A DNA stretch of 64,000 nt, from contig BPKC01000001.1 in NCBI GenBank assembly GCA_026004935.1, positions 868,001-932,000 of the forward strand, read 5' to 3'. The notes under the pieces were generated by a model that saw only the letters and a program-made list of their open reading frames with translations, did no database searches and was not told where the DNA came from. The DNA comes from Rhodothalassiaceae bacterium. Its GTDB lineage: Bacteria > Pseudomonadota > Alphaproteobacteria > Sphingomonadales > Rhodothalassiaceae. Both the position numbers and the translations under genes were made by a program. Below, piece after piece: positions 4,388-11,909 of the stretch (position 1 is the first letter of the stretch; every line of letters begins with the position of its first letter).

Positions 4388-5218
4388 ATGCAGCGAACAC
4401 TCAAGACACTCGCCTGCACGGGCCTGATCGCTGCGACGGCATGGTCGTTCGCCGCGACCGTGCGCGCGCAGGAGGCCGAGCAGACGCCGCCGCCCGCGCC
4501 GCCTGTGATCGAGCCCGGTCCGAAGCTTGATCAGGTGTTCTCGGAGGCGCTTCAGGTGATCAAGACGGCGCAGGCCTCCCAGGAGCAGATCGACAAGATT
4601 GCCTCCGAGACCGACCGCCTGTTCCGCGAGTATTCGACGAAGCTCAAGGAGATCGAAAGCCTGCAGGCCTACAACGCCCAGCAGGAGCGGGTGATCCGCG
4701 ATCAGCAGGCCAAGATGGCGGAGATCCAGAAGTCCATCGACGGGGTCGTCGCGGTGCGCCGGGGCATCACGCCGCTCATGCTCGAGATGCTGGAGGGGCT
4801 CGAGAAATTCGTGGAGCTCGACGTTCCCTTCAAGATCGAGGATCGCAAGGCGCGCCTCGAGAGGCTCAAGGACTACATGGACGATTCGGACATCTCCGCG
4901 CCGGAGAAGTTCCGCCTCGTGCTCGAGGCCTATCAGACGGAGGTCGAGTACGGCCGCACGATCGAGGCCTATGAGGGCACGGTCAACATCGATGGCACCG
5001 ACCGCGTCGTGAACTTCCTGCGCATCGGTCGCGTGGTGCTCGCCTATCAGACGCCGGACGGCGAGGAGCAGGGCTTCTGGAACCCCCACACGCGTCAGTG
5101 GGAGCCGCTGCCCGACAGCTATTCGACGCAGATTCGTGACGCCCTGCGCTACGCCCAGAAGCAGGCGGCGCCCAATCTCTACATCCTTCCTGTGACGGGT
5201 CCGGAGCAAGCGAAATGA
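4388..5218 (+). CDS. DUF3450 periplasmic protein of a TonB2-type system
   Basis: A 276-residue exported protein with a Sec signal peptide (MQRTLKTLACTGLIAATAWS, cleavage near AQEAEQ). A long coiled-coil follows (about residues 40-115: repeated Glu/Gln/Lys heptads such as AQQERVIRDQQAKMAEIQ), then a compact C-terminal domain. The layout matches DUF3450, which in Vibrio TonB2 clusters precedes the TtpC-type ExbB. It overlaps the next gene by ATGA. An in-frame ATG at 4361 would add nine residues before the signal peptide; 4388 gives a more typical signal. It may help gate or assemble the motor complex at the inner-membrane periplasmic face, which is inferred from context. Confidence 0.82.
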   Translation: MQRTLKTLACTGLIAATAWSFAATVRAQEAEQTPPPAPPVIEPGPKLDQVFSEALQVIKTAQASQEQIDKIASETDRLFREYSTKLKEIESLQAYNAQQERVIRDQQAKMAEIQKSIDGVVAVRRGITPLMLEMLEGLEKFVELDVPFKIEDRKARLERLKDYMDDSDISAPEKFRLVLEAYQTEVEYGRTIEAYEGTVNIDGTDRVVNFLRIGRVVLAYQTPDGEEQGFWNPHTRQWEPLPDSYSTQIRDALRYAQKQAAPNLYILPVTGPEQAK

Positions 5219-6654
5219 CCATGAAGAAGACCATGATCTCACTCGGCCTGTTCGCGGCCGCCCTGATCGCGAGCCCGGCGCTCGCCCAGGAGTCGGGCGG
5301 ACAGGCGGACAGGCCCCAGACCGAGACCGCCAAGCCCGCGGATCTCGACGCGCTCTTGCAGCTCGTCGAGCAGGGGCAGCTCACGGAAAACAGGCTGCAC
5401 CGTCAGCGCGAGGCCGAGTTCAAGGCGCGGCGCGACCAGCAGGCCAGGCTGCTCAGGGAGGCCGAGGCCGAGCGGGACCGCGAGGCCGCGCGTGCGACCC
5501 AGCTCGAGCGCCAGATCCAGCAGAACGAGGAGCGCCTGCGCGATCTGCAGCGCACGCTGCAGGAGCGTCTGGGCGAGCTCAAGGAGATGTTCGGCGTGAT
5601 CCAGCAGGTTGCCGGCGATGTCCGCGGCCAGGTGGAAAGCTCGCTGATCTCCGTGGAGACGGGCCGCGATGCCCGCGTGCCGGCTCTGGACAATCTGATC
5701 CAGAAGGCGTCCAGCTCCTCCTCGCTGCCGTCGATCGACGAGATCCGCGTGCTGTGGACCGAGATGATGCGCGAGATGGTGAAATCGCGCGAGGTCGCGA
5801 AGTTCCCGCACACGGTGATCACGGCGGCCGGTGACAAGAAGACCGTGGATCTGGTGCGCGTCGGCAACTTCAATCTCGTCTCGGACGACCAGGGGGTCTA
5901 CTACAAGTACGACTCCGAAAACGACAAGGTCGTCGAGCTGCCGAAGCAGCCGTCCTCGCGATTCACGGCCACCGCCGCGGCGCTGGCGGAGGCCCAGCCG
6001 GGCGAGGTCGTCGGTTTCGGCATCGACCCGACCCGCGGTCAGCTGCTGTCGATGTTCGTGCAGGCTCCGTCGCTGCGCGAGCGCATCGACCAGGGTGGCG
6101 TCATCGGCTACGTCACGATCGCGCTCGGCATCTTCGGCGTGCTGCTTGCGATCTACAAGATGATCGCGCTCGCCATCGTGAACGCGAAGGTGCGCGCGCA
6201 GATGAAGGCCGAGACCGCGAGCGACGGCAATCCGCTCGGACGCGTGCTCAAGGTCTACGAGGAGAACCGCAACGTCGACGTCGAGACGCTGGAGCTCAAG
6301 CTTGACGAGGCGATTCTGCGCGAGACGCCGGCGCTCGAGCGCGGGCTCACCATGATCAAGCTGATCTCGGCGGTGGCACCTCTGCTCGGTCTGCTCGGCA
6401 CCGTGACCGGCATGATCGCGACCTTCCAGGCGATCACGCTGTTCGGCACCGGCGATCCGAAGCTGATGGCGAACGGCATCTCCCAGGCGCTGGTGACCAC
6501 CGTGATCGGTCTCGTGGTCGCCATCCCGACGCTGCTGCTGCACAGCTTCGTCTCGGGCATGGCGCAGCGGGTGATCCATGTTCTGGAAGAGCAGAGCGCG
6601 GGTCTCGTCGCGCTGCATGCGGAAAAGGAGCATGGCGGTGCAAGTGCTGCTTGA
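5215..6654 (+). CDS. TtpC-like MotA/TolQ/ExbB proton channel protein with large periplasmic domain
   Basis: A 479-residue protein: signal peptide at 1-24, a long coiled-coil region rich in Arg/Glu/Gln (about 30-130), a periplasmic domain to about residue 295, and then three membrane segments of the ExbB/TolQ channel fold (VIGYVTIALGIFGVLLAIYK; LISAVAPLLGLLGTVTGMIA; LVTTVIGLVVAIPTLLLHSF). The LGLLGTVTGMI motif is the proton-channel signature. The pairing of an extended coiled-coil ectodomain with an ExbB-like C-terminus is that of TtpC, the extra subunit of Vibrio TonB2 systems. The start codon overlaps the preceding stop, and the next exbB starts inside its 3' end. Confidence 0.9.
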   Translation: MTMKKTMISLGLFAAALIASPALAQESGGQADRPQTETAKPADLDALLQLVEQGQLTENRLHRQREAEFKARRDQQARLLREAEAERDREAARATQLERQIQQNEERLRDLQRTLQERLGELKEMFGVIQQVAGDVRGQVESSLISVETGRDARVPALDNLIQKASSSSSLPSIDEIRVLWTEMMREMVKSREVAKFPHTVITAAGDKKTVDLVRVGNFNLVSDDQGVYYKYDSENDKVVELPKQPSSRFTATAAALAEAQPGEVVGFGIDPTRGQLLSMFVQAPSLRERIDQGGVIGYVTIALGIFGVLLAIYKMIALAIVNAKVRAQMKAETASDGNPLGRVLKVYEENRNVDVETLELKLDEAILRETPALERGLTMIKLISAVAPLLGLLGTVTGMIATFQAITLFGTGDPKLMANGISQALVTTVIGLVVAIPTLLLHSFVSGMAQRVIHVLEEQSAGLVALHAEKEHGGASAA

Positions 6655-7165
6655 TGCCTACAACGCCATCCTGATCTTTCTCGAGAAGGGCGGTCCCGTC
6701 CTCTACGGGGTGATGATCGTCACCTTCTGGATGTGGATGCTGATCATCGAGCGGCTGTGGTACTTCTTCGCGGGTGCCAAGGCCGACATCCAGAAGGTTG
6801 TGGCGGCCTGGGAATCGCGGCCGGAGCGCCGGTCCTGGTACGCCCACAAGATCCGCCAGGCGATGATCGCTCAGGTGTCGGAGAACCTGAACGCCAATGT
6901 CGAGATGATCAAGACGCTGGTCGCCACTTGCCCGCTGGTCGGGCTGCTCGGCACGGTGACGGGCATGGTGACGGTCTTCGACGTGATGGCGGTGCTGGGC
7001 AGCGGCAACGCGCGCGCCATGGCCGACGGCGTCTCCAAGGCGACCATCCCGACGATGGCCGGCATGGTGGCGGCGCTGTCCGGCGTGTTCGTGAGCAGCT
7101 GGATCGAGCGGCGCGCGCGCCGGGAGACCGAGCGGCTCGCCGATTCGCTGACGATGGACCACTGA
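6632..7165 (+). CDS. exbB: ExbB/TolQ proton channel subunit
   Basis: A 177-residue inner-membrane protein with three membrane segments: one near the N-terminus (VLYGVMIVTFWMWMLIIERL), then CPLVGLLGTVTGMVTVFDVM, then ATIPTMAGMVAALSGVFVSS. It has the GLLGTVTGM channel motif. Being short, it resembles ExbB2 of TonB2 systems rather than the longer classical ExbB. The ATG at 6632 follows AAAAGGAG and lies within the last 23 bases of the upstream gene, so translation is probably coupled. With the ExbD proteins it would couple the proton gradient to TonB. Confidence 0.93.
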   Translation: MAVQVLLDAYNAILIFLEKGGPVLYGVMIVTFWMWMLIIERLWYFFAGAKADIQKVVAAWESRPERRSWYAHKIRQAMIAQVSENLNANVEMIKTLVATCPLVGLLGTVTGMVTVFDVMAVLGSGNARAMADGVSKATIPTMAGMVAALSGVFVSSWIERRARRETERLADSLTMDH

Positions 7166-7303
7166 TGCCGGCGGGGCCGGGCGCGACAGGCGTCCGGCCC
7201 CGGCCATCGGTGGCGGGGGCCGGCATCCGCGTAGTGCCCGCCGTCCAGGAAAAGCGGCGGTTCCGGGCGGCCCGGCCCGGCAGACAGATGGGTTGCGAGA
7301 TCG

Positions 7304-7711
7304 ATGCGCAAGTTCAGCAAACGCAAGGATGAAGCCGAGATCAACATGACGCCGATGCTCGACATCGTGTTCATCATGTTGATCTTCTTCATCGTCACCG
7401 CCTCCTTCACGAAGGAGATCGGACTCGAGATCAACAAGCCGCCGCCGTCCGAGGATCAGCCGAAGGACGACGAGAACAAGGCGCTGCTGATCCAGGTCGA
7501 CCGTGCGAACCGCATCTTCATCGATTTCCGGCTGGTCGACATCGGCTCCGTGCGGGCCAACATCGAGCGTTTCCATGCCGAGCATCCGAAGGGGCCGGTT
7601 GTCATCCAGGCCGCGCCCGACACCAAGGCGGGCATCGTGGTCAGCATCTACGACCAGGCCCGCCAGGCGGGCGTCTACAACGTCTCGATCGCGGAGCCGC
7701 GCGAGTACTGA
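7304..7711 (+). CDS. exbD: ExbD/TolR subunit, first of two tandem copies
   Basis: A 135-residue protein with a basic cytoplasmic N-terminus (MRKFSKRKDEAEIN), one membrane helix (TPMLDIVFIMLIFFIVTASF) carrying the conserved Asp needed for proton transfer, and a periplasmic TolR-like domain. It is separated from exbB by 138 bases, the largest gap in this operon before the second copy. A 66-nt stretch around the membrane helix (7336-7401) is identical to 7891-7956 in the second exbD, although the periplasmic domains differ. Confidence 0.94.
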   Translation: MRKFSKRKDEAEINMTPMLDIVFIMLIFFIVTASFTKEIGLEINKPPPSEDQPKDDENKALLIQVDRANRIFIDFRLVDIGSVRANIERFHAEHPKGPVVIQAAPDTKAGIVVSIYDQARQAGVYNVSIAEPREY

Positions 7712-7861
7712 TGAACGCCGGTCGGCGGACGCCGGCGGCGGATTGTCGGAAGCCGCACGGGCTCCTATATTGAGAACGGGGAGAGGCCAGCATCAGCGGG
7801 CGATGTCGATCCGGACCAGCGGTGCCAGGATTCGTCGGCGCGTGTGAGGGAAGATCGCGGA

Positions 7862-8260
7862 ATGCGTGAAAAGCAGCAGGAAGAGGAACTCGAGATCAAC
7901 ATGACGCCGATGCTCGACATCGTGTTCATCATGTTGATCTTCTTCATCGTCACCGCAACCTTCATGAAGGAGGCGGGGGTCACGGTGGAAAAGCCCGAGG
8001 CGCTCACGGGCGAACGGCAGGATCAGGCCAGCATCATCGTCGCGGTCACGGACAAGGACGAGGTCTGGGTCAACAAGCAGGTCGTCGACATCAAGGCGTT
8101 GCGGCCGCTGATCGAAAAGCTGCACGCGGAAAACCCCAAGGGCACCGTGGTGATCGAGGCGGACAGGGATGCGCGCGCCGGGCTCATGATCCAGGTGGCC
8201 GATGCCATCCAGGCCGCGGGTGTGGGCACGGTCGCGGTCTCGACCGAGGAGAGGCGGTAG
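7862..8260 (+). CDS. exbD: ExbD/TolR subunit, second tandem copy
   Basis: A 132-residue ExbD paralogue. After MREKQQEEELEIN comes the same membrane helix as the first copy, then a distinct periplasmic domain beginning KEAGVTVEKPEALTGERQDQ. The ATG at 7862 has GAGGGA about ten bases upstream; a GTG at 7844 is an alternative. It lies two bases before tonB. Two ExbD genes in one operon suggest a heteromeric ExbD pair in one motor, or two interchangeable subunits. This is inference. Confidence 0.94.
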   Translation: MREKQQEEELEINMTPMLDIVFIMLIFFIVTATFMKEAGVTVEKPEALTGERQDQASIIVAVTDKDEVWVNKQVVDIKALRPLIEKLHAENPKGTVVIEADRDARAGLMIQVADAIQAAGVGTVAVSTEERR

Positions 8261-8262
8261 TC

Positions 8263-8886
8263 ATGACCAGATATGTCCCGGCAGTGCTGATCGCGGCGGG
8301 CGTCACCGCGCTGCTGTTCTTCTTCATGCAGGCGCTGGTCGCCAATCCCGAGGTGAAGCTGTCAAACATCAAGCCCGTGGTGTTCACGGACGTGATCCAG
8401 GTCGAGAGGCCCGAGACCGTGCATCGCGAGACGCCGGAGGTGCAGAAGCCCGACATGCCCGAGGCGCCCCCGCCGGATCTCAACATCCCGAAGGCATCGG
8501 TCAGCGGCGCGCGGCAGTCCATCAGCTTCTCGCGGGTCAGCCTTGACGCAGGGATCGATATCGGCCGGGTCGACATAGGCGGTGCCACGGAAGGCGACTA
8601 TCTGCCCCTGGTCCGCATCCAGCCGGAGTACCCGCCCCGGGCGGCCGAGCGCGGGATCGAGGGCTATGTGATCGTGGAGCTGACGGTCACCCCCGACGGC
8701 ACCACGAAGGACATCAAGGTCATCGAGGCCGATCCGCCGGGCTATTTCGAGCGCGCGGCCATCCGGGCGGCGGAGAAGTTCCGCTACAAGCCGCGGGTGG
8801 TGAACGGCCAGCCCGTCGAGGTGCAGGGCGTGCGCTACATGTTCACGTTCCAGCTTGACGACAGCGATGGGCGGCGCCGGCGCTAG
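8263..8886 (+). CDS. tonB: TonB family energy transducer
   Basis: A 207-residue TonB: short cytoplasmic start, one signal-anchor helix (VLIAAGVTALLFFFMQALV), a Pro/Glu-rich periplasmic linker (about residues 45-80; PEVQKPDMPEAPPPDLNIPK), and a C-terminal TonB domain (YPPRAAERGIEGYVIVELTV, then FRYKPRVVNGQPVEVQGV). The linker is short, as in TonB2 proteins. It presumably energises one or more outer-membrane TonB-dependent receptors, none of which is encoded in this window. Confidence 0.94.
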   Translation: MTRYVPAVLIAAGVTALLFFFMQALVANPEVKLSNIKPVVFTDVIQVERPETVHRETPEVQKPDMPEAPPPDLNIPKASVSGARQSISFSRVSLDAGIDIGRVDIGGATEGDYLPLVRIQPEYPPRAAERGIEGYVIVELTVTPDGTTKDIKVIEADPPGYFERAAIRAAEKFRYKPRVVNGQPVEVQGVRYMFTFQLDDSDGRRRR

Positions 8887-8999
8887 CGTGCGGCATTCGA
8901 CAGTTCCGGCCCCAATGAAGGAAAGCCCGCGCCCGGCCGGCCCCAGATCATGACGGCGTCATGCGGCGGTGCGCCGCGGTGCGGGAGGAGGAGCACGAA

Positions 9000-10394
9000 A
9001 TGACATCTATGGGATGGGCAGGACGGGCGGTCACCGGTCTTGCGGCGGGCGCGCTGATGCTGTGTGCGGCCCCCGCGCTGCAGCCCGCCGGAAAAGCCGC
9101 GGGCGGCGCATCCGCACTGGTCGTCGAGCTTTTCGCCGGGGCGGCGCTTGCGCAAAGCGATCAAGCCAAGCCGGCGCGCAAGACGAAGCGGGTCGACGCC
9201 ATCCGGCAGCAGTACATGTCGGAGTTCGACAAGATCAACAAGCTGCTGGATGAGAAGAAGAATGCGGAAGCTCTGGCCCGGCTCAAGGAGCTCGCGCAGG
9301 AGAAGCTGAACGATTACGAGAAGGCGATCGTCTATCAGTTCATCGGTCAGCTGCTGGCGCAGGATGGCAAGTACAAGGAGGCGATCCCCTATTTCGAGGA
9401 GATCCCGACGCTCGAGCGCGCGCCGGACGCCCAGATCGACACCGCGCTGAACATCCTCTCCCAGCTCTATCTGGCGACTGACGAGTACAAGAAGGCCATC
9501 GAGACCAAGCAGAAGTGGATGGCGCGACAGGAGGTGCTGTCGCCCAGCGACTACATATTCCTGGCCCAGGCCTATTACGGCCTCGAGGACTACAAGAACG
9601 TCGCGAAATATGCGGAACAGGGCATCAAGATGGCGCGCGAGACGGGCAGACCCGTCGAGGAGCGCTGGTGGCTGCTGCTGCGCGCGGCGTACTGGGAGCT
9701 GAAGGATTTCCAGAACGTCAAGCGCGTCATGGAAATCCTCGCCCTCAACTACGACAAGCCCGAATACTGGCGCAATCTGGCGGGCGTCTATGGCGAGCTC
9801 GGGATGGACGACAAGGCGCTGGCCGTCATGGAGATCGCCTATCGCCGCGGATTCCTCGATGAACGCGAGCGGTATCTCATCAATCTCGCGCAGATGTACA
9901 TCGCCCGCGGCGCCCCCATCAAGGCCGCCTGGCTGATCGAGCGCGGGATGAAGGAAGGAAAGATCGAGAAGACGGCCGACAACTACGAGCTTCTCGGCCA
10001 AGCCTATCTCAACGCGATGGAGATGGACAAGGCCGAGCGGCCGCTCCGGCTGGCGGCCCAGATGAAGAACAAGGGCGAGCTGTGGATGCGCCTCGGCCAG
10101 GTCCTCGTCCAGCGCGAGAAATGGAACGAGGCGATCGAGGCGCTGCAGAAGGCGATCGATGCCGGCGACCTCGACAAGCCGCAGTACGCCTATCTGCTGC
10201 TGGGCACCGCCTATTTCAACATCGACGAATTCGACAAGGCGAAGGAGGCCTTCCGCGCGGTGCTCAAGATGAAGGACGAGGATGCGCAGCAGAGCGCCCG
10301 CAAATGGCTCGGCTACATCGACAGCGAGCTGAAGCGTCGCCGCCAGCTCACCGAATTCTACGACAAGAGCGGCAAGCGCCGGAAGCGCAGCTGA
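9000..10394 (+). CDS. Exported TPR-repeat protein of the TonB operon
   Basis: A 464-residue periplasmic or lipid-anchored-like protein: a hydrophobic N-terminus (about 1-50, with a cysteine in ALMLCAAPAL) and then repeated TPR helices across the rest (for example DYEKAIVYQFIGQLLAQDGK, EYKKAIETKQ, WNEAIEALQKAIDAG, EFDKAKEAFRAVLKMKDEDA). A strong GGGAGGAGGA ribosome site precedes the ATG at 9000, so the upstream in-frame ATG at 8961 is less likely. A TPR gene follows tonB2 in Vibrio TonB2 clusters too, supporting a scaffold role in the same complex. A clear terminator hairpin follows. Confidence 0.88.
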   Translation: MTSMGWAGRAVTGLAAGALMLCAAPALQPAGKAAGGASALVVELFAGAALAQSDQAKPARKTKRVDAIRQQYMSEFDKINKLLDEKKNAEALARLKELAQEKLNDYEKAIVYQFIGQLLAQDGKYKEAIPYFEEIPTLERAPDAQIDTALNILSQLYLATDEYKKAIETKQKWMARQEVLSPSDYIFLAQAYYGLEDYKNVAKYAEQGIKMARETGRPVEERWWLLLRAAYWELKDFQNVKRVMEILALNYDKPEYWRNLAGVYGELGMDDKALAVMEIAYRRGFLDERERYLINLAQMYIARGAPIKAAWLIERGMKEGKIEKTADNYELLGQAYLNAMEMDKAERPLRLAAQMKNKGELWMRLGQVLVQREKWNEAIEALQKAIDAGDLDKPQYAYLLLGTAYFNIDEFDKAKEAFRAVLKMKDEDAQQSARKWLGYIDSELKRRRQLTEFYDKSGKRRKRS

Positions 10395-10448: not shown

Positions 10449-10565
10449 TTCCCGTTGCCGGCCGCCCCCTTGCGATCGGCCTTCGAAGGTGGTCTTCTGC
10501 GCACGGATGACGCCCTGACGGCCGGACCCTCCCGGCCTGGCGGCTTTGCGGAAAGGAGGTCTGCG

Positions 10566-11909
10566 ATGACGGCGGCGACGAGAGCGGCGGCGGTGGCGCT
10601 CGCCGCAGCGATGGCGGTGGCGCAGGTTGCGGGGGCGGCGCGGGCGCAGGCTCCTCATGCAGAGATCGGCGAAGACTACGCCCATCTTGAGCAGCTCTAC
10701 CGTCACCTCCACAGCCATCCCGAGCTCAGCTACCAGGAGGCCGAAACCGCGAAGCGCATCGCCGCCGAGCTCAGGGCGCTGGGCTTTGCCGTCACCGAAG
10801 GTGTCGGCGGCCATGGCGTCGTCGCGATCATGGAAAACGGCGACGGGCCGACGGTGATGCTGCGCACCGATCTCGATGCCCTGCCGGTGGCGGAGCAGAC
10901 GGGCCTGCCCTATGCGTCGCGCGTGAAGGCGGTGGAGCAGACGGGCCAGGAGGTCCCGGTGATGCACGCCTGCGGGCATGACGTGCACATGACGGTGCTC
11001 GTCGGCACCGCCCGCTGGCTGGCGGCGCACCGCGACCGCTGGTCCGGCCGGCTGATGCTGATCGGGCAACCGGCGGAGGAGCGCGGAGCGGGCGCGCGCA
11101 AGATGCTGGAGGACGGCCTGTTCACGCGCTTTCCCAAGCCGGACTATGCGCTCGCCCTGCATGTGAACGCGGCGCTGCCCGCGGGCACGGTGGCCTATGT
11201 GCCGGGATACGCGCTCGCCAACGTCGACTCGGTCGACATCACCGTGCACGGCATCGGCGGCCATGGCGCCTATCCGCAGGCGACGAAGGATCCGATCGTG
11301 CTGGCTTCCGAAATCGTGCTGGCGCTGCAGACCATCGCCAGCCGCGAGATCGACCCGCAGGATCCCGTGGTGGTCACGGTGGGATCCATCCACGGCGGCG
11401 CCAAGCACAACATCATTCCGGACCGCGTGGATCTGCAGCTGACCGTGCGCAGCTACTCCGACGAGACCCGGCACAAGGTGCTGGAGGCGATCCGGCGCAT
11501 CGCCGTCAACATGGGCCGGGTCGCGGGCCTGCCCGACGATCTGCTTCCCGAGGTGAAGATCCACGAGGAGGAATACACCCCGGCCACCTACAACGACCCG
11601 GAGCTTACCGAGCGGCTGGCCGCGGCGCTCGCGGCGCGCTTCGGCTCCGAACGCGTGATCCGCGCGAAGCCGGTGATGGGCGGCGAGGATTTTTCGCGCT
11701 ACGGCAGGGCGGGGGTGAAGGCGGTGATGCTGTGGCTGGGTGCGGTCGACCCCGACAAGTGGAGACTCGCCCAGGAGGGCAAGCTTTCCCTGCCGTCGCT
11801 GCACTCGCCCTTCTTCGCCCCGCTGCCGCGGCCCACGATCACGACGGGGGTGGAGACGATGGTAACCTCGGTGCTCGCTCTGATGGGCAGGAGAGACGGC
11901 GCGGGCTGA
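10566..11909 (+). CDS. Exported M20-family amidohydrolase (peptidase/deacylase)
   Basis: A 447-residue zinc hydrolase of the M20 amidohydrolase group (hippurate, IAA-amino acid and N-acyl amino acid hydrolases). A signal peptide (about 1-27, AAAMAVAQVAGAARAQA) sends it to the periplasm. Metal-site motifs are visible: LRTDLDALPV, HACGHDVHM, GQPAEERGAGA and the late VMGGEDFSRYG. An optimal GAAAGGAGGT site precedes the ATG at 10566. Substrate cannot be read from sequence. Its position just after a TonB system could mean that it processes an imported amide or peptide conjugate, which is inference. Confidence 0.87.
   Translation: MTAATRAAAVALAAAMAVAQVAGAARAQAPHAEIGEDYAHLEQLYRHLHSHPELSYQEAETAKRIAAELRALGFAVTEGVGGHGVVAIMENGDGPTVMLRTDLDALPVAEQTGLPYASRVKAVEQTGQEVPVMHACGHDVHMTVLVGTARWLAAHRDRWSGRLMLIGQPAEERGAGARKMLEDGLFTRFPKPDYALALHVNAALPAGTVAYVPGYALANVDSVDITVHGIGGHGAYPQATKDPIVLASEIVLALQTIASREIDPQDPVVVTVGSIHGGAKHNIIPDRVDLQLTVRSYSDETRHKVLEAIRRIAVNMGRVAGLPDDLLPEVKIHEEEYTPATYNDPELTERLAAALAARFGSERVIRAKPVMGGEDFSRYGRAGVKAVMLWLGAVDPDKWRLAQEGKLSLPSLHSPFFAPLPRPTITTGVETMVTSVLALMGRRDGAG

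Follow-up and report, generated by a model that had tools for sequence, protein, structure and literature searches.

Two ExbD types, retained one of each, in a TtpC-type Ton motor cluster of a Rhodothalassiaceae bacterium

Why would a Ton motor cluster that resembles the TonB2 system of Vibrio encode two ExbD proteins? The question is raised by a 64,000-nucleotide stretch of a Rhodothalassiaceae genome (contig BPKC01000001.1, positions 868,001 to 932,000; this whole stretch is the window, and its own numbering is used below). At 4388-10394 the window carries, on the + strand, genes for a DUF3450 protein (TtpB), TtpC, ExbB, two ExbD proteins (ExbD1 and ExbD2), TonB and a tetratricopeptide repeat (TPR) protein (TtpD). 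These seven genes, and their order, had been proposed from the sequence of the window in an earlier reading (the original prediction), and all of them were found there with matches to Pfam or TPR models above cut-off. As described below, ExbD1 and ExbD2 belong to two paralogue types that diverged long ago and are retained one of each, and the cluster is slightly more probably than otherwise a general TtpC-type Ton motor in which the two would form a heterodimer inside a TtpC/ExbB ring.

Two ExbD types and their distribution

ExbD proteins of related loci were scored against D1 and D2 profiles, with the models built excluding the scored protein's own family. Each of the 54 scored pairs, which come from 13 families, consists of one D1-like and one D2-like protein; the weakest margins, ~4 to 5 bits, belong to one protein of family f5 and one cut protein of family f124. 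The gene order is swapped in f5, f40 and f240, and the one-of-each rule still holds. Families f40 and f240 were absent from every training set, and the f5 rows, which received their swapped label once the first tree was available, helped to train the models for other families. Dropped before the counts were L233 (second ExbD reading as a broken frame) and two cases missed by the motif pattern (the first ExbD of L121, and L252); L141, with three ExbDs, was left out of the pairs, and L166, whose contig ends after D1, was left out of the singles. Where only one ExbD is encoded, it is mostly of the D2 type: 35 of 35 singles in the class, 39 of 44 outside it and 65 of 68 in a set of named loci. The exceptions are D1-like (5/44 outside the class and 3/68 named loci, among them L307 by 19 bits). 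Four gammaproteobacterial pairs point in the same direction, one being clearly one of each and three combining a first protein near the border with a second that is clearly D2.

Further ExbDs encoded downstream of the cluster are all D1-like. There are 13 of them in the Kordiimonas-containing family (f175) and three in the Emcibacter-containing family (f176; L187, L188 and L195). All 13 in f175 adjoin a further TonB, forming second modules of TonB and a D1-like ExbD in L163 (11588-13968), L171 (11116-13379) and 11 further loci. That such modules also carry TtpD proved true of 2 of the 13 only and was discarded as a general statement.

In the ExbD trees the D1 type stands apart from both D2 and single ExbDs. 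In an 81-row tree, D1 falls on one side of a branch with support of 94, below the 95 mark (single, 58; D2, 47); this clean tree was obtained after labelling f5 as swapped and L166 as D1 and dropping one long-branch row. The 209-row tree had no clean groups (10 changes for D1, 8 for D2), and an 82-row subset tree still required 5 changes for D1 when rows were labelled by gene position. A recent duplication as the origin of the second ExbD is rejected on the family-held-out scoring and the trees.

The transmembrane (TM) Asp is present in all aligned rows (55 D1, 54 D2 and 79 single ExbDs), a count for which the row-picking pattern itself required this residue, and the two missed rows (L121 and L252) have it too. 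Judged by sequence, both ExbDs should be active in principle. D1 and D2 of the same locus share 90% identity in the TM segment and 28% in the periplasmic part (n=54), the latter being the informative figure because the TM segment is conserved across all ExbDs considered here. The Asp in the loop between strand 3 and helix 2 is found in 52 of 54 D2 and 78 of 79 single proteins, and in 6 of 55 D1 proteins. In addition, the D1 linker is longer and Pro-rich, the last strand of D1 is altered, and the periplasmic part evolves faster in D1 (mean distance 1.28 vs 0.93 in D2). Mean D1-D2 divergence is 0.39 in the last strand, 0.36 in the linker, 0.32 in strands 1-2 and 0.31 in the strand 3-helix 2 loop, with segment boundaries inferred from ExbD homology.

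The DUF3450 family was detected above cut-off in 24 of 385 genomes of the class Alphaproteobacteria (own genome counted), in 57 of 398 genomes of the phylum (E <= 1e-20) and in 68 of 99 genomes of the order (E <= 1e-10). Among 150 fetched stretches, a sample weighted toward the organism's own order, 143 have TtpC (window included). A cluster was taken as complete when it extends unbroken from ExbB through a recognised TonB, as it does in 129 of these loci (88 in the class, 41 outside it); the remaining 14 are either cut or have no recognised TonB. One ExbD is encoded in seven loci without a recognised TonB (L206, L207, L208, L250, L251, L253 and L254). The gene order is far from a chance arrangement because numerous loci across the class and phylum share it.

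The complete class clusters encode two ExbDs in 54 cases, one in 31, none in two and three in one. The Vibrio TonB2 order of the original prediction holds, and the second ExbD, which it called extra, is no oddity but belongs to the commonest state. Copy number tracks family: in complete clusters, the Kordiimonas-containing family has two ExbDs in 24 of 24 and the Emcibacter-containing family one in 21 of 21. In 80 named loci, some of which share contigs with the fetched stretches, the ExbB-TonB interval holds one ExbD in 69 cases and two in six; in one locus the ExbD follows TonB (L303), and four are unreadable. The two-ExbD state extends beyond Alphaproteobacteria, because four of these six two-ExbD loci have gammaproteobacterial titles (L267, Chromatiales; L292, Halieaceae; L295, Woeseiaceae; and L315). 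Two clusters (L178, 5221-10287; L199, 5273-10076) run TtpB-TtpC-ExbB-TonB-TtpD with no recognisable ExbD between ExbB and TonB. One genome with such a cluster (G747) additionally has a complete two-ExbD cluster; the genome of L199 (G746) encodes three ExbDs elsewhere that score 44-58 bits with the D1/D2 profiles, approximately the level of TolR. The three ExbDs of L141 (7652-10374) are D1, D1 and D2 by profile and are accompanied by two TonBs.

Gene layout, channel and genomic setting

In the first part of the cluster, ttpC overlaps ttpB by 4 nt and exbB by 23 nt; 2 nt separate exbD2 from tonB, and larger gaps precede exbD1 (138 nt) and exbD2 (150 nt). The latter gap contains a weak sigma-70-like match (9/12) at 7743-7771, in a region with two such matches vs 0.5 expected. 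For ExbD2, ATG 7862 is a more likely start than GTG 7844. TtpC, like TtpB and TtpD, has a signal-peptide-like N-terminal stretch as read from sequence.

Table 1. The cluster and its downstream neighbour in the window
Gene or product	Position	Strand	Features	Best model match
ttpB	4388..5218	+	DUF3450 protein; signal-peptide-like start (read from sequence)	PF11932, 3.3e-85, 285.7 bits (cut-off 32.6)
ttpC	5215..6654	+	DUF3450-like periplasmic domain fused to MotA/ExbB channel domain	PF01618, 9.5e-31, 106.6 bits (cut-off 22.9), residues 345-458
exbB	6632..7165	+	ExbB-type channel subunit, 177 aa	PF01618, 6.4e-22, 78.1 bits (cut-off 22.9)
exbD1	7304..7711	+	D1-type ExbD, 135 aa; TM Asp present, conserved strand 3-helix 2 loop Asp replaced by Ala	PF02472, 7e-30, 104.2 bits (cut-off 25.4)
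exbD2	7862..8260	+	D2-type ExbD; TM Asp and loop Asp kept	PF02472, 3.3e-29 (reading from 7844), 102.0 bits (cut-off 25.4)
tonB	8263..8886	+	207 aa; single N-terminal hydrophobic segment without His (read from sequence); short linker	TonB_C PF03544, 3.6e-22, 79.0 bits (cut-off 24.6), residues 120-196
ttpD	9000..10394	+	TPR protein; reading frame open from 8961, signal-peptide-like stretch after ATG 9000	several TPR models above cut-off
M20 amidohydrolase (outside the system)	10557..11909	+	signal-peptide-like start	TIGR01891, 300.6 bits (cut-off 153.75)

Two distinct channel subunits, TtpC and ExbB, co-occur. In an alignment of 140 TtpC and 132 ExbB rows (11 rows lack the row-picking motif, in which the other channel Thr lies), the TM3 site occupied by Glu in the TolQ of this genome (alignment column 276) is mostly Gln (55%), Ala or Met in TtpC and mostly Lys (62%), Arg or Gln in ExbB. 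The Thr five residues past this site is conserved at 99% in both proteins, and in ExbB it is preceded by Pro (95%). We take the site to be that of Glu176 in the ExbB of Escherichia coli. The latter residue is discussed in PMC8599685. A mixed TtpC/ExbB ring may be expected because the two proteins co-occur in 142 of the 143 TtpC loci and have unlike residues at the TM3 site. In the TtpC model (mean predicted local distance difference test, pLDDT, 81.5; predicted template modelling score, pTM, 0.46) the channel matches ExbB and TolQ structures, with 6tyi chain A at E 1.2e-6 and a TM-score of 0.71 by target length.

The N-terminal domain of TtpC is homologous to TtpB by sequence comparison: the profile-profile match reaches 97.9% (reversed control, 7.9%), and residues 41-246 of TtpC match PF11932 at 3e-4, below the family cut-off. 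In the AlphaFold2 model of TtpB (mean pLDDT 80.0, pTM 0.50), a 100-residue helix (45-144) is accompanied by a pair of shorter helices and a part with five strands. TtpB and the TtpC N-domain agree in the succession of elements in their models: a ~100-residue helix, two shorter helices, five strands and a helix. This shared long helix, together with the homology, suggests that the two proteins could contribute to a periplasmic stalk. Searches of the PDB by fold and by sequence gave no convincing TtpB relative: the best Foldseek match has an E-value of 0.19, and the sequence matches are weak and coiled-coil-like.

The host genome (2.91 Mb, completeness 100) encodes three ExbD-family proteins: the two in the cluster and one beside TolQ, TolB, Pal and YbgF. 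The latter set scores as a Tol-Pal system (TolQ 263.1 bits, cut-off 221; TolB 482.1, cut-off 343.15; Pal 142.9, cut-off 125.35; YbgF 123.7, cut-off 90.1), with its TolR at 121.6 bits, slightly below the cut-off of 127.3. A long CRISPR-like array (~29-nt repeats, spacing mostly 61 nt) lies near tol-pal at ~13.8-18.0 kb of stretch L109 (~C1:2,506,800-2,511,000). The cluster itself is not a Tol-Pal system: the TolQ model gives 66.3 bits on TtpC and 39.5 on ExbB, and the TolR model 56.7 and 65.7 on the ExbDs. The six MotA_ExbB matches in the genome are TtpC, ExbB, TolQ, one MotA (364.6 bits, cut-off 303.8), one MotA/PomA-like protein below the cut-offs and one weak match. Three TonB_C matches were detected, and the two outside the cluster are short proteins with signal-peptide-like starts and no linker. 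They lie at 6983-7540 of L110 and 7522-7971 of L111, and have little beyond the TonB C-terminal domain. Profile searches thus revealed no further ExbB-ExbD-TonB set in the genome apart from Tol-Pal and the MotA-like proteins.

In the same genome, receptor-plug matches number 27 at E <= 1e-3 and 24 at 1e-6, two of the 27 resembling fragments of one gene. Because the cluster is the sole ExbB-ExbD-TonB set found in a genome with this many receptor-plug matches, it is probably the general, and probably the sole, Ton motor of the cell, serving its receptors broadly. The original prediction had left the cargo open for lack of an adjacent receptor, a view that this setting largely supersedes. The 27 plug matches all fall outside the window, and the 19.5-kb stretch surrounding the cluster contains no recognised receptor. 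The M20 amidohydrolase, which the original prediction had noted as following the cluster, had no counterpart next to any other fetched locus (E <= 1e-20; many stretches end early), and its presence here is incidental. A specific cargo inferred from the neighbours is rejected on these three grounds. Upstream of the cluster, a pabB-like gene recurs in 37 other loci from six families.

How two ExbDs may share one motor

In the motor that we favour, TtpC and ExbB would assemble into a mixed ring around an ExbD1:ExbD2 heterodimer, with a proton-binding Asp on each of its helices. Proton passage would rotate or rock the dimer, whose periplasmic domains would hold one TonB close to its membrane anchor and pull, opening whichever loaded receptor that TonB has engaged. 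TtpB and the TtpC N-domain, with their ~100-residue helices, would form the periplasmic stalk, and TtpD would couple it outward. Asymmetry of roles is a known property of the ExbD homodimer, because in E. coli one TonB D-box peptide lies parallel to one ExbD chain and antiparallel to the other, via residues 130-134 (PMC10907165), and the pair of Asp residues in the dimer mostly face different directions in Ton and Tol motors of known structure (PMC12905483). By analogy, such asymmetry may be encoded in a D1/D2 motor: the two roles of the E. coli homodimer on one TonB peptide would be divided between D2, whose domain has the common form, and D1, whose domain is changed. This division is proposed because of the 28% periplasmic identity, the loss of the loop Asp in D1 and the position of this loop, which is a protomer contact in E. 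coli ExbD (PMC10907165). The old and conserved pairing of the ExbDs suggests that the motor is asymmetric by design. More tentatively, and as a possibility rather than an expectation, the heterodimer would be obligate, each ExbD would be specialised for one TonB-gripping face, and ExbD doubling would have occurred at least twice independently, in TtpC-type and in classical Ton operons.

Several observations weigh against this picture. Conservation of the TM segment in all ExbDs makes the 90% identity little informative on its own, and the contact loop as a whole is less diverged between D1 and D2 than the last strand, the linker and strands 1-2. A single ExbD suffices in many relatives, namely the 31 class clusters mentioned above and 41 of 41 complete clusters outside the class. 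The second ExbD of Xanthomonas is dispensable for iron uptake (PMC3551730), so tandem ExbDs can hold separate jobs. The plug matches are no proof that every receptor is driven by this motor. Finally, D1 and D2 do not co-evolve beyond what they share with ExbB and TtpC: in 54 loci the partial r was -0.00, with 473 of 1000 permutations as high, and in a second distance-based test with 52 loci it was -0.05. Co-evolution was therefore abandoned as support for a D1-D2 interface; its absence gives the heterodimer no support, nor does it exclude one. The hetero-oligomeric motor of the original prediction fits two intact-looking ExbDs, TM Asp included, and the pairing of one of each, and received no backing from the distance test. 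In the 52-locus test, the larger partial correlations were TtpC-TtpD (0.47), TtpC-ExbB (0.45), TonB-ExbB (0.41), D2-TtpC (0.32) and D1-TtpD (0.28); with 21 exploratory tests on related loci, these values are a hint only.

The lack of D1-D2 co-evolution would be in keeping with separate D1 and D2 homodimers that exchange in one ring for different tasks, such as transport and receptor signalling, or for different TonBs or substrates. In Xanthomonas, exbD1 is needed for iron uptake and exbD2 is not, while both are needed for pectate lyase activity (PMC3551730), and the further ExbDs of the Kordiimonas- and Emcibacter-containing families are all D1-like, as if D1 were exchangeable. However, the window holds one TonB and one TtpC/ExbB set, all 54 scored pairs are one of each with all 35 class singles D2-like, and in the non-TtpC Ton operon of Sphingobium SYK-6 disruption proved impossible for exbD1 and for exbD2 alike (PMC8599685), which suggests that both can be indispensable. 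We consider exchanging homodimers rather unlikely.

Less probable still is a modulator role for D1 within the ring, where it would have a poor hold on TonB or peptidoglycan and serve to tune, gate or assemble the motor, leaving the pulling to D2. The absence of the loop Asp from 49 of 55 D1 proteins, the linker and last strand of D1, its faster periplasmic evolution and its weak, exploratory tracking of TtpD distances are all in keeping with such a role, but every aligned D1 row retains the TM Asp, and the proposal overlaps the heterodimer reading. Redundant copies kept for dosage, with which the intact appearance of both ExbDs would agree, are very improbable given the old split, the low periplasmic identity and the occurrence of one of each in every scored pair, swapped gene orders included.

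Relation to known Ton systems

Tandem exbD genes have long been known from Xanthomonas (tonB-exbB-exbD1-exbD2; PMC3551730), Sphingobium SYK-6 (tonB1-exbB1-exbD1-exbD2; PMC8599685) and Flavobacterium psychrophilum (as cited in PMC3551730), and are described for Myxococcus in PMC11658791. The Xanthomonas and Sphingobium operons resemble the present cluster in having two ExbDs in one Ton operon, and SYK-6 likewise has three exbD-like genes, of which one is tolR and the other two belong to the operon (PMC8599685). However, both operons are without TtpB, TtpC and TtpD, and the order and content of the present cluster differ, so it does not belong to that kind of tandem-exbD operon. Three pairs of tandem ExbDs from family f2, of the same order, score ~20-41 bits with the D1/D2 profiles, as compared with 44 and 50 for the TolR of this genome and 145-207 for the ExbDs of the window, which are themselves profile members. 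These profile scores of three pairs, taken without a tree, point to a separate doubling in f2. No sphingomonad ExbD sequence was among the matches listed in the plasmid collection (40 of 105 records). TtpB, TtpC and TtpD are known from Vibrio (PMC6957404, PMC5524678), so that neither they nor tandem exbD genes are new; what is new is the one-of-each rule, and neither this rule nor an ExbD1:ExbD2 heterodimer is announced among the matches listed in the open-access PMC literature.

The closest likeness is to the Vibrio TonB2 system (TtpB2-TtpC2-ExbB2-ExbD2-TonB2-TtpD2; PMC6957404), with which the cluster shares six protein kinds in identical order, from TtpB first to TtpD last. As in TtpC-type systems generally, DUF3450 comes first, TtpC, with its N-domain fused to an ExbB channel, stands beside a separate ExbB, ExbD and TonB lie downstream, and the TPR protein is last. 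The cluster departs from the single ExbD typical of such systems, a trait that does not define membership, in having two ExbDs of two types. The Vibrio TtpC-type system is needed for TonB-dependent uptake (PMC6957404, PMC5524678). In contrast to Vibrio vulnificus with its three Ton motors (PMC6957404), this was the only Ton motor found in the genome, and it offers an alphaproteobacterial setting for studying TtpB, TtpC and TtpD within what is apparently the sole motor.

With E. coli ExbBD-TonB the cluster shares the channel fold, as seen in the TtpC model, the ExbD family and the TM Asp. The E. coli motor differs in having a single kind of ExbB and a single kind of ExbD that forms a homodimer (PMC10907165), and no TtpB, TtpC or TtpD. 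The two ExbDs in each E. coli ring are identical, so genetics cannot separate their roles. Here the two positions are different genes, and each can be mutated, tagged or crosslinked separately; a D1/D2 system could thus directly test the need for both Asp residues, the face of the ExbD dimer that holds TonB, and the mixed ring.

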